Source: Coriolopsis trogii
Taxonomy: Eukaryota; Basidiomycota; Agaricomycetes; Polyporales; Polyporaceae
Assembly (NCBI GenBank): GCA_020543525.1
Contig: JAHYIO010000003.1
Location: forward strand, 992,001-1,056,000
DNA length: 64,000 nucleotides
Direction of reading: 5' to 3'
The position numbers and the translations under genes were made by a program. Below, in pieces: positions 16,703-24,452 of this stretch; position 1 is the stretch's first letter, and each line of letters opens with the position of its first letter. The notes beneath the pieces are model-generated. The model had not been told where the DNA came from and made no database searches. It saw only the letters and a list, made by a program, of their open reading frames with translations.

Positions 16703-18456
16703 CTATGTTGTCTCCCCGCCGACGGGGACAGCAGGCTGCGACTTGTTGCGGAGGAGGGCCAGACAGTGTTGTCCACCACATGCAGCGTCGACTGCGGCCC
16801 ACGATCCACCCTCTTTGCGTACAACTACCGCAGGAGTCTTCTGCTCGTCGATATCATCATCTCCGAGGCCGAGTTCGCCTACGACTTGTCGCCCCCACGA
16901 GTACAAGGCGCCACCTTTCGTCACCGCAAGATTGTTGTTCGTGCCGCATGCGATGTGGGTCACAGGATCGCTCGGATCAGGGAAAGTAACGAGCGCAGGT
17001 TCCGGCAGGCAGTCGGTATACTGCCTGTCTTTGAACGCCTCATCGTCGTCCGCAAGGCCAAGACGTCCCTCTTCAGAGAGGCCGCACGCATACACGCGCC
17101 CATCTGACGTGAGGAAGAGCGTGTGAAGGTCACCGCCGGCGATTTGGACGACCGTCGCCCCACCAAGCTCCTTCTTACTGAGGCCAATGACCAGCTTGGG
17201 AGCATGGACTTCGCGGTCAATGCTAGCGTCGGCGAGACCGGTCCCTGTCTGCCCTTTGGAGTTAACACCCCAACCCCAAGTGTTGCCCTCCTCGTCGACG
17301 GCGAAAGAGTGGTTGTTACCGGCCCCGATGACAACGGCCTTGCGACCGCGCATTCCAAGGACGATCTTCTCAGGTGTGGTGCCAGCGATTTTGCGGCGTT
17401 CAATAACGCGGCGACCGAGCTGTCCTTCCTCGCCGGTTCCAAGTGTGTAGATATTGCCGAGGGTTGTAAGGAGGATAAGATGGTTGTTGCCGGCGGCTGC
17501 AGACACCCATTGCTCGTCCTTGAGCTCAAGGACTGGCGTAGGCTTGTATTGTTTCTTGGAATGGCTCGAAAATCCGACCAGACCTTGGTTACCCTTTATG
17601 CGACGTGTCAGATCATACTAAGTGAACAGATGCATCGGTACACACCGAAAATGCGCCCCATGCACGAAGTTCTCCCTTGTCACCAATGGCAGCAGAGAAG
17701 CTGTCCCCGGCCACGATCTTCACAGCACGGAACCCCTCGTCCGCCAGACTGTGAATGGGTACAGGTTTCCAAACAGGGTCTGATGTCTTCTCGTCCACCT
17801 CCAAAGCGCTCTTGTCATCCTTGGGATCCGGGATCATCACCGTGACACGACCCAAAGCACCGTTGTCATTGGTGCCGCAGGACCACACCTACGAATGAAA
17901 CGATTAAGAAACGAGACTGCAAGCGAAACATCCTTTGACGTACCATGCCCTTCTCATCCACGAACAACGTGTGTAGTCCGCCAGCAGCGATGGACTCCAA
18001 ACCAGCCTCGTCTCCACCGAACGTCCCCTCCTCGATATGCGAGGCTACGAACGCATTTTTGCGCGGCTTGTTGATCTCCTGATTGTAGTCCATCGCTAGT
18101 TGGCTCATCTCTCCTGAACCCCATGTAAAGAGCTGGAGAGGTGGACGGTAGTGCTGTGGTATACAAGGGAGTGCGTTGATGGCTTGGGGCACTTTGCGAA
18201 CTCGGGCGGGAGCTTTCGCCTTCTCGACCTTGGTCTTCGTGGTAGCAGCGCTGGCCTTGCCGTTAGCCTTGCTAGTAACCTTGCCATTGGGTGCTGCGGT
18301 GGATTTGGGCTTCTCTACATTCGCCGCACCGGCACGGAGGACACGCTTCGCAGCGGGAGCCTTGTCCACCTCGGGAGAGGCGGCGCGTTTTGTCGCGCGG
18401 GTGCGCGACTCGGGCGGAGCGGTGGTAGTGGCTGCGCGGGCACGTCTGGGTGGCAT
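16703..18456 (-). CDS. RCC1: RCC1-type guanine nucleotide exchange factor for Ran
   Basis: Chromatin-bound exchange factor that charges Ran with GTP, needed for nuclear transport and spindle assembly (Pim1 and Srm1 in yeasts). Exons 18456-17944, 17888-17646 and 17593-16703 give 548 residues. The first 95 or so residues are basic and rich in Ala, Lys and Pro, as expected of a DNA-binding and nuclear-import tail. Beta-propeller repeats follow, with blade signatures LFTWGSGEMSQL, VWSCGTNDNGALG, LRAWGAF, IYTLGTGEEGQLGR, TWGWGVNSKGQTG, VYACGLSEEGRLG and LYSWGRQVVGELG. Between them come AGGLHTLF-, AGDSFSAA- and AGNNHSFA-type segments. This is the usual seven-blade count. It is convergent with the acyl-CoA ligase 271 bp away and divergent from the SAP kinase. 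Confidence 0.95.
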
Positions 18457-18798: not shown

Positions 18799-21700
18799 AT
18801 GGCCCAAAGACGTTCTAGCCATCGCTCAGCTTCTCTCCAAGACACCGCCATACTCAACCGCCGCAAACTGCAGGCCCGACACGCGACTACTGGTCGGAGA
18901 CGCGTCTTTTCCTTCGCAAATCATTACATCGAATCTGCGCCTAGCTCCCACGCGTCGGGGAGTTCGCCGCCGACCTCTCGTCCTGTGCTTGTTCCTGTCC
19001 AGTTCAACCTCCGTCGGCTCCCTTCACGCAATTTTACGCGCCATAAGGACAACATGCGCGATGTATCCAACGGATGCGACGTGTCCGTCGGCATGAAGCG
19101 CAAGCGCGTCGTGAGCGGCAGCGAGAATACCTCCCGTGAGAGAGGAAGCGCTCGTCTCCCCAACCGCGCCAAGAGGCGCAGAGCTATGCCCGACTCTAGT
19201 GATGAGGAGGCTCCGAGCGGAATGGATGTCGACGAGGAGGAAAGCTGGAGTGGGTCGGACAATTCCGATGATGAAGGAGCTCTGGATTCATGTACGCACC
19301 CTTCATATCTTCCATACCTTGTGCATTGTTCACACTGTAACGCAGCCGATAATTACCTCATCAACGAGGCTCCCCCACGTCGGCTCCTTCGTCTTCGCAA
19401 GGATGAACTCGTTGCCCTGTATTCTGCTGCTGGTCTTACTGAAGATGCTGAACTCCTCACAAAACCTGAGATCGTCGATTGCATCATAGCCGCTCGTGAC
19501 GATGTGGCTGACCTGCCACCTTCTTCACCTGGCGTCGCCGATAGTGGCTCGAGTGACTATTCCTCAGATGGAGGGAACGTTGCTGGTGGGGAGGAGACGG
19601 ATTTTGGCAACTTCAGGAATGGGCTTCGGAGGAGGGCGACCGTACATGACCTTGGTCGTGTCTCACGCAGACATCTACCGGACCGAAGTCTATCTATGAG
19701 CCATATTCAGCGCCACAACGAGGAAATGTCACCCACGGCAGGCAAGCGGAAACGTGGTTTGCCAGAGATGCACGCCACTCATCTGACAAACGGGATATCA
19801 ACGAGAAGGTATGTCTACTTATTTTGTCGTGGTGAAAGTTCGCTACATCGTCGCTGCAGGCGAGGGGCTAGCAATGCAAGTTCGACGAGATCATCACCCA
19901 CTTCTACAATGCCGTCGGTTCTACCTTCACCTCCCGCCACCCGCCTTCGTACGCGGAAGGCCTCTGGAGAAATCGAGGCCGGTCCGAGTTCTACGGGCAC
20001 AACCAAGGGCAAATCCAAGGCGAAACATGTGGGTTTCAATGATGAGGTCGAAGTCAACCGATTACCGTCGCCGTCGCCGGAAGCCGAGGAGAGTGATCTC
20101 ACAGACCTGACAGAGGTTGAAGAATCGCTCCGTCGGGCCATCCCGAGTCCACGACGTCTTCGCAGTAAGGGCTCCGCCAGTAAGCTCTCTGTATCTCAAG
20201 ACAGACGCCGTGCAGACGAAGCCTTGGATCCTGGTCGGAGAGTTACGCCGGCGCGTAAAGCGAAGGGTAAAGTCGGGAACCTCCACGAGAGCACAGATGA
20301 AGAGGCCGAGGAAGACGAACTCTTGTCAAGTGGTTCGGAAAATAACGAAGTTGATGAGCTGCACGAGTCACCATCTCCTCTGGCGACGCCGAAGGCCAAA
20401 TCTACCGTATATGGTCGACGTACTCCTGTCAAGAATCGACTCCGAACCCGCCACTTACAAACCCACACCCCTCCTAGCGACGGAGATGACGAGGACAGCG
20501 AGGAGGAAGGCACGGTTGTAGCGGGTGAGGAGGGAGATGATGAGGGAAGTGATGACGGTGGACACGATGAAGCTATGCATGAGGAGCCTCGCAGACTGCG
20601 TAATGGGAAAGTTGTCGGAGAAGGTGATGTAGAAGAGGATATCGGTGAAGAGGATGAAGAAGACGACGATGAGGAGAGCACTGAGGATAGTGAGTCAATC
20701 GCGTCAACGGTGGATGAAGAGGACGAAGCGGACATTGACGCGGAGGGCGAGAGCGATGAGCCCATGGAGGACGATGACGGTGTGTTTGCTTGCATCCTCA
20801 CCATCCAAGTTTGCTGACAACCATCTAGTCGATCTCACTGTCGCTACCGCGAAGACACTTGTACGTCTACGAAGGGATGACCTTGTCAGGCTTTGTGAAA
20901 CACGAGACATCGATCCCAAGGGAACGAAGCCGCAGCTTGCCGAGGCATTGCTCCAATGGCGCGACAAGCACTGCAGCGAAGCTACATCGTCTGCTCCCTC
21001 CTCGACTGGAACTGCTCGTCCTCCATCTACCGCCCGTGTTCCGCGTCGAAGGCGAACACGCTCTCAGTCTAAGTCAGACAGCACTACACCTCCCGTTCTA
21101 CTCCGTTCGCATCACGTCCATCTCGATGAGCCCCGAACACCTCCCTTGTCTGGTCGTGCTAAGAAGGACAACGAAGGCGACATCGAGCTTGATCTGGAAA
21201 GCCTTGGGTTGGAAGACCGTGAGATCCCTCCAGAGAAGCTGACGAAGCTGGAGAAAATCGGCAGCGGTGGCTTCAAGGACGTTTATATCGGCAAGTTCAA
21301 AGGGCGTCGTGTCGCCATTGCGGAGTTCCGGGGTCAACTGAGTGAAAGTGCGTCAGTTATGCGTTGAACTCGTAAGTCGAGCAAGATCGCTGACGTTTGC
21401 GTAGTGGACATCAAGGAGCTCAAGCTGCTTGGTGACTTCGATCATCCGAACATCGTTCGTTTCGTGAGTCTGCCCGCATATGTCGTCCCGTTTTCTTCAT
21501 CCCTGACTCCCTCGTCAGCTCGGTGTCAGCATACCTGAGAACACTCGCGAGACGCCGGTCATGATCGTCAGCGAGCTGTGCGCAAATGGTGATCTCTTCG
21601 ACTACATACGCAACGTTAATCCTCCGTCGCTGTACCGCGTGGTACGTTGATTCTTTGAGAGAGTAAAGACATGACTTACAATATCGCATAGCTCTCTATC

Positions 21701-22263
21701 ATGCTCGACATTGCTCGCGGGCTTGAGTACCTCCACCTCCGCAAGCCATCCGTCATCCACCGTGATTGCAAGTCATCAAACATCCTCATTACCTCCAAGG
21801 GCGTTGCTAAGATCACCGACTTCGGTCTTGCGAAGGTGAAGCAGTCGACGCGTTCGATGGTCCGCAGTCTTGTGGGTACTGTCAATTGGCAGGCGCCTGA
21901 GCTTTGGCATCCACACCCGAAGTACAACCACAAGGTGGACGTTTTCTCTTGCGCTATGGTCTTCTGGGAGATTCTGCAGTGGCATGTACCCAACAAGAAG
22001 TACCCCTGGGAAGGCATGAACGAGCACGCCATCTACGAAGCGGTGGGCGCCAAGCGCCAGAGGTACGTGTGGATTACTCCCTCCTTGGAGCTTTTCATTA
22101 AAATATGGTGGAACATAGGCCGTCTGTTGCAGGCCTTCGGAAGCAATGGTGCCCTGAAGTCGTAGACCTCATGGAGCACATGTGGGCGCAAGATGCTGCC
22201 GATAGGCCCACCATGTCCAAGGTTGTTGAGGAGCTCGAGCATATCATCTCATTATACCGGTAG
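18799..22263 (+). CDS. SAP-domain protein kinase with relocated lysine (TKL-like)
   Basis: Large protein kinase, 1030 residues if started at 18799; the ATG at 19054 is an alternative. Exons: 18799-19291, 19346-19808, 19860-20779, 20829-21347, 21405-21463, 21519-21641, 21692-22062 and 22119-22263. A basic N-terminus is followed by a SAP-like helix pair (RRLLRLRKDELVALYSAAGL, about 176-215), a long Ser/acidic low-complexity region, and a second SAP motif (VRLRRDDLVRLCETRDIDPK, about 635-672). A kinase domain fills residues 762-1030. It has HRD with DCKSSN (882-889), DFG (902-904), GTVNWQAPE and DVFSCAMVFWE. The beta-3 position reads VAIA instead of VAIK (Ala790). A lysine sits in the glycine loop, GSGGFKDVY (Lys775). 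SAP motifs suggest a chromatin-linked role. One exon carries both the second SAP and the start of the kinase, so the fusion is real. Confidence 0.9.
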
Positions 22264-22758: not shown

Positions 22759-24452
22759 TCAAGTCGAAGTCCCAGTCAGCTCGGAAAGACGATCCAACGC
22801 AGCAGGCGAGTCATAATCCGCTTCGTACATATACTCTCTGATATTCAGCCCAGCAGTCGTCGGGATATGTGAGATACGGACACCCAGAAGCTCGACGGGC
22901 CACAGGTCTACGCTGTCCGAGTCCGCGACAGCTTGTTCACGCTCGACGGCCCACCAGCGCGATCCGAGCCGCTCCTCGTTCCAGATAGGCTCGTCGTCGC
23001 GCATGTAGCGGCCGTCGACGAGCGAGATGCCGATGACTCGCAACTGGCGGTTCCTCACCGCGAGGTCGTGTGCGATGCTGGCCAGCTCTGCCTCGCGGTC
23101 CTCGGGCTGGTAGTATGCGCGTATTCACAAGTTCACGACAGTCAAGGCTTGGAAGCGGGCGAGGTGAATGAGCATGTAGCACTAGAGAGAACATGGACAT
23201 CAGTCTGTGTGTGACAGAAATGATATCGAAGAGACGTCGACGGCGCACCTTACGGTTGCCTGAAAGTTCTATGATCTTTGTGTCGAGGAACCGCAGATCA
23301 GTCGCGATCGTTGGCAAATTGACCCAGAAGAGGTTGTCTGAGTTGATCCGGTAGCCACAGGACAGGACGCGAGGTTTGGTCGCGGCAACTGCGGAAAGGG
23401 CATCGGCCGAGTAGCCGCTACGGAGAAGGTCGAAGTCGAGCCACCTGATGCGACTAGAAAGTGGCCAGATGTCGAGGTCGAGGACGTCAATGTGAGCTTC
23501 GGCTAGCGGGTGAGACCAGTGTGCGCCCCGAGTGACTTCGTTGTCGAACCCATGAGTGTCACTGACAGCAGTCCTTTGGTAACGGCGGCTGCGGTACGTA
23601 ACTCGCACCAGGTTAGGAAAGAGGGCGGCCGCAAGGCCCACAGGGAAGACAGCGTTCTCGACAAATAGGGTGTGTACCGAAGGCAGGAGAACACCGGAGA
23701 CGAAGGTGGGAAGTAGACAGAACGTGTTGATAGAGAGCCTGAGCTCCTCCAAGGCTTTGTAACGAGCGAGTGGTACGAACAGCTGGTCTACAGATAATCT
23801 GTATGCACCGACGAAGTAGATGCTGATCTTGCGCATAGTGGTGTATTTGAGGCCGAAGACAGCATCCGCAGCATTGCGGGAGGCCCCATGGAGGTTCAAC
23901 TCTCGGATGTCTTTCAGCGATGTGAGAGCGTCAAAGATACGCCCGGCGGATGCTTCGAAGAGGCCTTCGGAAAACCCGTGACAGCTAAAGCTTCGCAGAT
24001 TTTGCGCGCTCTGGAGTATGTCAGCCAGCGCAGCAGCGGTTTCGGTGGACTGGGAGTCGATCTCCCAAGTCACCCCCTTCGCAAGAGACAATGACTTGAG
24101 AAACGTAGGGCGTGCATTGGTAGCAAGAAGATAGTTTCTGAATTGCTGAATTTGTTCCGGAGACCGGTCGAGTACCACCGTATGCAATGCGGGATCGATG
24201 GGGATGGCATGAGCAACCTTGCACGTGTAGGAAAACATGATCGCATCCTTAGGGACCAGGTATGATATGACGTGCGATAACACTCCCGGTGGGAGGAGTG
24301 TCAGTGTGCGACGGTTCTACGGCGAGTTGCGCTCAGCTTCAGGTACTACGTACGCATGGGAAGCGGTAAGTCCGGCAAAGTGATTCACTCACAGCAAAGG
24401 ATGTACAAGGCTGGAATGCGCTGTTGGGTGAGCGTCGAGTGTGATCAGACAT
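22759..24452 (-). pseudogene. F-box/LRR-like protein gene with premature stop
   Basis: Basidiomycete F-box protein, likely a substrate adaptor for SCF ubiquitin ligases. Exons 24452-24393, 24316-23249 and 23181-22759 join in phase. The F-box core is LLPPGVLSHVISYLVPKD...FSYTCK, followed by the usual ALHTVVLDRSPEQIQQF segment and leucine-rich repeats. In the last exon the frame reads FQALTVVNL, then TGA at 23125-23127, then continues IRAYYQPEDREAELASIA through to 22759 with family-like content. The model gives 394 residues to the TGA, against about 516 if the stop is ignored. A TGG-to-TGA change would explain it. No intron could remove the TGA without being about 22 nt long. The truncated protein may still be made. 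Confidence 0.75.

Follow-up and report, generated by a model that had tools for sequence, protein, structure and literature searches.

According to a survey from 2007, the WNKs were the only functional family of eukaryotic protein kinases without the lysine of strand beta-3 (the VAIK lysine), and the lysine in the glycine-rich loop of WNK1 is needed for catalysis and contacts ATP as K72 of PKA does (PMC1821047). POMK (SGK196), in which a relocated lysine of the loop and strand beta-2 is needed for activity, was recognised after that survey, and WNK and POMK are now the established kinases with a relocated lysine (PMC10211241, PMC12599244). Here we describe a gene on a stretch of 64,000 nucleotides of the polypore Coriolopsis trogii (contig JAHYIO010000003.1 of assembly GCA_020543525.1, positions 992,001 to 1,056,000; hereafter the window, whose own numbering we use). 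Its product carries SAP motifs followed by a TKL-like kinase domain that lacks the beta-3 lysine and has one in the loop; we call it the SAP-kinase, and its relatives the family.

WNK1 and the family have in common a lysine that replaces the third glycine of the loop (GRGSFK in WNK1, GSGGFK in the family), no beta-3 lysine, a Glu after the beta-3 position, the glutamate of helix alphaC, and HRD. They differ in that WNK1 has Cys at the beta-3 position, DLG, no WxAPE and no RP of subdomain XI, whereas the family has Ala, Ser, Gly or Cys, DFG, WxAPE, RP and a SAP domain before the kinase. WNK kinases also possess a C-terminal autoinhibitory domain and RFxV motifs; the SAP-kinase of the window stops 8 residues beyond its kinase domain, which leaves no room for a C-terminal tail. 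POMK resembles the family in its relocated lysine, but its substrate is a sugar, and it is without the customary HRD, DFG and alphaC Glu, all three of which the family retains (PMC10211241, PMC12599244). CAK-chloro shares with the family a shift of the positive charge from position 72 to 55; that family is kinase-like, however, stands outside the eukaryotic protein kinases, and carries Arg at 55 and Phe instead of the alphaC Glu (PMC1821047). CTR1 and DLK (MAP3K12), unlike the family, have kept both the loop Gly and the beta-3 lysine, while a short link between beta-3 and alphaC and an Arg at position 793 are common to DLK and the family.

In our opinion it is likely that the SAP-kinase is an active, SAP-tethered kinase of the Ser/Thr type with a TKL body, in which the role of the beta-3 lysine towards the ATP phosphates has passed to Lys775, as in WNK, through one change that preceded the split of the Basidiomycota and was most probably independent of WNK.

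The loop lysine in the gene and its relatives

The codon AAG at 21275-21277 encodes Lys775 and the codon GCG at 21320-21322 encodes Ala790, both within GSGGFKDVYIGKFKGRRVAIAEFRGQLS. A first-pass annotation, made from the letters of the window without database searches, had reported exactly these codons and residues, and the eight-exon splice model gives the same number for Lys775. When the family is aligned with WNK1, CTR1, DLK, BRAF, TAK1, PAK1 and EGFR, WNK1 K233 shares a column with Lys775 and WNK1 C250 with Ala790, so the lysine position is WNK-like, as had been proposed. In this genome a DNA pattern for GxGxFKxV[YF] has a single site, which is the SAP-kinase gene itself (reversed-pattern control, 0), and a pattern for the canonical GxGxFGxV[YF] has 17 (control, 1); these scans detect only loops within a single exon, and not all 17 canonical sites are confirmed kinases.

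Three protein searches (E-value at most 0.001) gave 1705, 846 and 1242 matches. The best 120 of each were taken, amounting to 276 different proteins, of which 207 span both the loop and beta-3 after alignment; the conservation counts below refer to these 207 unless another number is given. The loop lysine is found in 203 of them and in all 120 of the best-listed relatives of the first search, which are 83-93% identical to the window protein over the kinase domain and in many cases of similar total length. Thus the alignment of homologs that the annotation had proposed as a check came out in favour of its claim. The beta-3 position holds Ala in 138 relatives, Ser in 50, Gly in 10, Cys in 9 and Lys in none; it is always a small residue, as is Cys250 of WNK1. 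That 203 of the 207 have the loop lysine and none has one at beta-3 shows that the arrangement is more than chance. Between positions 762 and 839 only three sites carry a basic residue in 90% or more of the 207 and in every one of the eight non-basidiomycete relatives described below: K768 before the loop (198), K775 (203) and R793 (207).

The features of the gene, all on the forward strand, are as follows.

18799..22263: SAP-kinase gene, eight exons, 1030 residues in the splice model
18799-19291, 19346-19808, 19860-20779, 20829-21347, 21405-21463, 21519-21641, 21692-22062, 22119-22263: its exons, with the stop codon at 22261-22263
19378..19491: first, weak SAP-like motif, about residues 176-213, found with a profile of the downstream SAP
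20864..20959: SAP domain, residues 638-669; Pfam SAP 14.9 bits, cut-off 23.9
21242..22236: protein kinase domain, residues 764-1022, with four introns inside; Pfam PK_Tyr_Ser-Thr 157 bits, Pkinase 150 bits
21275..21277: Lys775 at the third-glycine position of the glycine-rich loop, in the column of PKA G55 and WNK1 K233
21320..21322: Ala790 (codon GCG), where the beta-3 (VAIK) lysine would be expected
21416..21418: Glu803, the alphaC glutamate; Glu in 207/207
21758..21766: HRD motif, residues 882-884; 207/207
21818..21826: DFG motif, residues 902-904; 207/207, with DLG at the same place in WNK1
21893..21901: APE motif, residues 927-929; E929 in 205/207 (two gaps), P928 in 190/207

The seven introns are all of the GT..AG type and 49-57 bases long, and the frame stays intact; the start codon (ATG at 18799) was chosen for the model and is putative. 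HRD, DFG, APE and the C-helix Glu, which the first-pass annotation had listed, can all be located in the spliced protein. The annotated interval ended at 21345, just before a splice donor at 21348, and the codon of Glu803 therefore lies in the next exon.

Two further features of the active-site region were seen. Asp776 (21278-21280) is conserved in 204 of 207 relatives and Arg793 (21329-21331) in all of them; lying on neighbouring strands, the two may pair. In the alignment, CTR1, DLK, PAK1, EGFR and WNK1 do not have Asp at 776. The residue that usually follows HRD is Leu; here it is Cys (HRDCK; residue 885, 21767-21769), an unusual active-site cysteine present in 163 of 183 relatives.

Catalysis, phosphorylation and chloride

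Glu803, HRD with Asp884, DFG, Lys886 and Asn889 are each found in 207 of 207 relatives. From the invariance of E803, HRD and DFG we conclude that the other catalytic residues have been retained, and this conservation agrees with the earlier proposal of an active enzyme in arguing against a dead kinase. With the lysine placed as in WNK, its Glu partner and the catalytic loop intact and a small residue at beta-3, an active kinase with a moved lysine role is the best reading. Indeed, we infer from these patterns both that the SAP-kinase is active and that Lys775 contacts ATP. Lys775, where beta-2 begins, would have taken over the binding of the ATP phosphates from the beta-3 lysine; extending into the pocket, it would touch the alpha and beta phosphates and pair with Glu803, and the small residue at beta-3 (Ala, Ser, Cys or Gly) would leave it the space to do so. 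An AlphaFold2 model of a 313-residue relative from Serpula, P0129, is confident, with a predicted local distance difference test score (pLDDT) of 85.2 and a predicted template modelling score (pTM) of 0.84; its strand beta-2 (59-66) opens with the equivalent lysine, K59, and its helix alphaC (82-93) includes E87, the equivalent of Glu803.

Control by phosphorylation of the activation loop is plausible, because the column of WNK1 Ser382 holds Ser or Thr in 206 of 207 relatives. The possibility of chloride sensing as in WNK, which the first-pass annotation had raised, has fared less well. The column of WNK1 L369, the Leu of DLG, is Phe (the Phe of DFG) in 207 of 207 relatives, and the substitution L369F turns WNK1 chloride-insensitive (PMC7606576). 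Because the invariant Phe of the family equals that of insensitive WNK1, chloride sensing of the WNK type appears unlikely. The other side-chain contacts of the chloride site are kept or similar: the F283 column is Phe in 206 of 207, the L299 column Ile in 190, Met in 11, Leu in 3 and Val in 3, and the L371 column Leu in 205. Their retention would speak against a complete difference from the WNK site.

Placement among TKL kinases and the rival explanations

As the annotation had it, the kinase is TKL-like. In a single-sequence search of solved kinases, CTR1 and MAP3K12 are the nearest after a two-domain EGFR construct, and a profile of the family gives 209 bits to that EGFR construct (two domains, about 104 each), 175 to CTR1, 166 to MAP3K12, 160 to MLT/MAP3K20, 151 to TNNI3K, 150 to BRAF and 149.6 to WNK1. 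Full-domain scores are 168 bits for CTR1, 155 for DLK, 143 for WNK1, 106 for EGFR and 100 for an STE kinase of the same genome. The W of the TKL-type WxAPE is present in 204 of 207 relatives. The best-scoring other locus of the genome, C4:1089444, is canonical (GSGSFGNVYKG, VAIKEV). We file the family as a TKL-derived variant, and not as an ordinary member of TKL, given that its beta-3 lysine is absent. Trees were made without the two lysine columns, on panels with 7 or 5 other kinases in which WNK1, on a long branch, was the sole WNK. They place the family beside DLK (87/74 and 73/80) with WNK1 outside, and this support is moderate. WNK1 falls outside a group of the family, TKL and EGFR (93/87) and outside the family with DLK, CTR1 and BRAF (77/91), neither branch being starred. 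The tree analysis itself warned that the joining of DLK and the family may be a long-branch effect.

Several observations weigh against the interpretation that we prefer. The SAP scores are mostly under the Pfam cut-off. Four relatives (P0165, P0192, P0213, P0256) do not have the loop lysine; in them unrelated letters replace the whole loop, up to the following DVY, VY or Y. In P0210, which was counted among those with the lysine, GGFK is followed by an inserted stretch and then DVYKG. The aberrant loops of these five proteins probably reflect intron or exon-calling errors in the gene models. Another such observation is the invariance of R793 (207/207), which offers a possible alternative contact for the phosphates. 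An active kinase could hold them by Arg793 at the end of beta-3, with Lys775 merely shaping the loop, yet DLK carries the same Arg beside a normal beta-3 lysine, and a residue three places past the beta-3 lysine position would be expected to point to the opposite side of the strand; we give this explanation only a slim chance. It is also improbable, though somewhat less so, that the family consists of pseudokinases which have just lost the beta-3 lysine, that the lysine of the loop is incidental or structural, and that the protein serves as a SAP-anchored scaffold or nucleotide sensor. The canonical lysine is indeed gone in 207 of 207 relatives, and pseudokinases of the TKL group are frequent in plants and fungi (PMC10211241). 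However, the HRD Asp, Lys886, Asn889, the DFG Asp and the alphaC Glu are retained in every one of the 207 across several phyla, and a dead kinase would be expected to have lost some of them.

The more serious competitor is descent from WNK, that is, a single relocation in an early eukaryote that both families inherited. An approximately unbiased (AU) test leaves a clade of the family with WNK1 unrejected (p 0.263 with 7 other kinases, 0.37 with 5), which is a further point against our interpretation. The place of the family inside TKL is tentative too: its clades with CTR1 (p 0.067) and with DLK (in the best tree) are neither demonstrated nor rejected. Among distinct solved sequences WNK1 ranks 13th (149.6 bits), close behind the TKL kinases, with no PAK or other STE kinase among the best 60, and with phmmer it scores 89-116 bits against 17 family members, a range that overlaps its scores against CTR1 (117) and PAK1 (102). 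WNK1 likewise has a Glu after the beta-3 position and a Ser at the S918 column. With the N-terminal lobe (N-lobe) alone, the profile puts WNK1 (33.7 bits) second to DLK (35.4) and above CTR1 (29.8), with EGFR at 21 and the STE kinase at 7. With the C-terminal lobe (C-lobe), on the contrary, CTR1 (131) and DLK (111) rank above WNK1 (105), followed by the STE kinase (84) and EGFR (78). Moreover, writing the canonical G and K into WNK1 lowers its score by 5.6 bits over the full domain and by 7.9 bits in the N-lobe, so that the shared lysine pattern accounts for part of its rank. The family further has the TKL-type WxAPE, the RP of subdomain XI, DFG rather than DLG and, in its basidiomycete members, the short beta-3 to alphaC link of DLK, and the best trees leave WNK1 outside. 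Taking both sides together, we regard descent from WNK as unlikely. The independence from WNKs that the first-pass annotation had suggested is therefore favoured by the best trees and the C-lobe scores, but the AU test does not reject the opposite; convergence in the placement of the lysine is favoured, not proven.

With rather less assurance than for the moved lysine role itself, we lean towards the broader view that TKL kinases invented independently, at the same loop position, the solution that WNK found for ATP, and that an ancient SAP-tethered with-no-lysine family of single origin extends from Kickxellomycota and Glomeromycota to mushrooms. The beta-3 pocket, emptied in this way, might accommodate a small ligand or an ion other than the chloride of WNK.

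SAP motifs, distribution and neighbouring genes

SAP motifs do precede the kinase, as annotated, at scores mostly below the Pfam cut-off. Among the 19 family proteins examined with Pfam, three (P0149, P0150, P0272) exceed the SAP cut-off, 14 fall below it and two have no SAP reported; the order of SAP before kinase also holds in Ambispora, where SAP reaches 32.3 bits and so passes the cut-off. A search with the SAP of the window as query detected the domain in all 121 long proteins, of which 120 are relatives and one is the window protein itself. A profile of those copies detects a further SAP-like site (independent E-value, or i-Evalue, below 0.01) in 50 of the 121 and in none of 121 shuffled sequences. 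The eight best of these sites lie at residues 179-233; the copy in the window protein, at residues 176-196, is weak (i-Evalue 0.074). DNA is the usual ligand of SAP domains, and because of this we read the SAP-kinase as probably nuclear and tethered to DNA or chromatin. A transactivation trap, a screen in which its authors expected false positives, recovered a Laccaria TKL-ccin kinase, not shown to be an ortholog of the SAP-kinase, in its class of nuclear activators (PMC5604158). Long acidic stretches of low complexity occur at 20280-20779, between the two SAP-like sites and upstream of the SAP at 638-669; they are absent from the eight non-basidiomycete relatives, which are 362-392 residues long.

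The relatives range wider than the Agaricomycetes. The named ones belong to Agaricomycotina (also Tremella, Filobasidium and Calocera), Ustilaginomycotina (such as Meira and Malassezia) and Pucciniomycotina (such as Mixia and Rhodotorula), and the search with the Mixia protein also reached Glomeromycota (Glomus, Rhizophagus, Ambispora, Geosiphon), Mortierellomycota (Mortierella) and Kickxellomycota (Linderina). Ranks were looked up for five species, those of the remaining species being general knowledge, and eight proteins were taken as non-basidiomycete, seven by name and P0277 by its sequence. No Ascomycota name was noticed among the matches listed (the best 120 per search). All eight non-basidiomycete proteins read GSGGFKDC[YF] and VAIGE[LI]R. 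Because they share it, the arrangement would be older than the split between the Basidiomycota and the three other phyla just named, unless it was transferred between phyla. We infer a single origin; the change would have occurred once, before that split, and most likely independently of WNK.

Databases name the members of the family hypothetical proteins, kinase-like proteins, MAP3K12/13 or TKL-ccin. The last of these is a broader name: a relative from Coprinopsis cinerea, P0065, carries the label TKL/TKL-ccin and has 85% identity in the kinase region. In the parts of the TKL-ccin literature available to us no comment on the lysine was found. FslK kinases resemble the family in being fungal, related to TK/TKL and rich in Agaricomycetes, but they are reported as lost from Ustilagino- and Pucciniomycotina and as keeping the ATP-binding residues (PMC3937382). 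We rejected an identity of the two, the family being present in both subphyla (Meira in Ustilaginomycotina, Mixia in Pucciniomycotina). Within the openly licensed literature, no title or start of an abstract describing the relocated-lysine arrangement in fungi was found.

Upstream, an RCC1-like gene (17866-18456, reverse strand) starts at 18456 and is divergent from the SAP-kinase ATG at 18799, so that about 340 base pairs of upstream DNA are common to both; its first exon, the only one scanned, gives Pfam RCC1 21.3 bits (cut-off 21.7) and WD40_RLD 29.8 bits (cut-off 150). In the convergent neighbour downstream (22940-24316, reverse strand) an F-box scores 17.6 bits, short of its cut-off of 20.5.

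A widespread fungal family with a lysine in the WNK column on a TKL body would be a natural replicate of the lysine change of WNK, and it would separate the move of the lysine from DLG and the chloride pocket, which are found together in WNKs. Lists of pseudokinases that are based on the VAIK lysine could overlook active kinases of this sort. For the fungi themselves, the SAP-kinase would be an unstudied kinase, perhaps working at DNA, with an ATP pocket unlike that of ordinary kinases.
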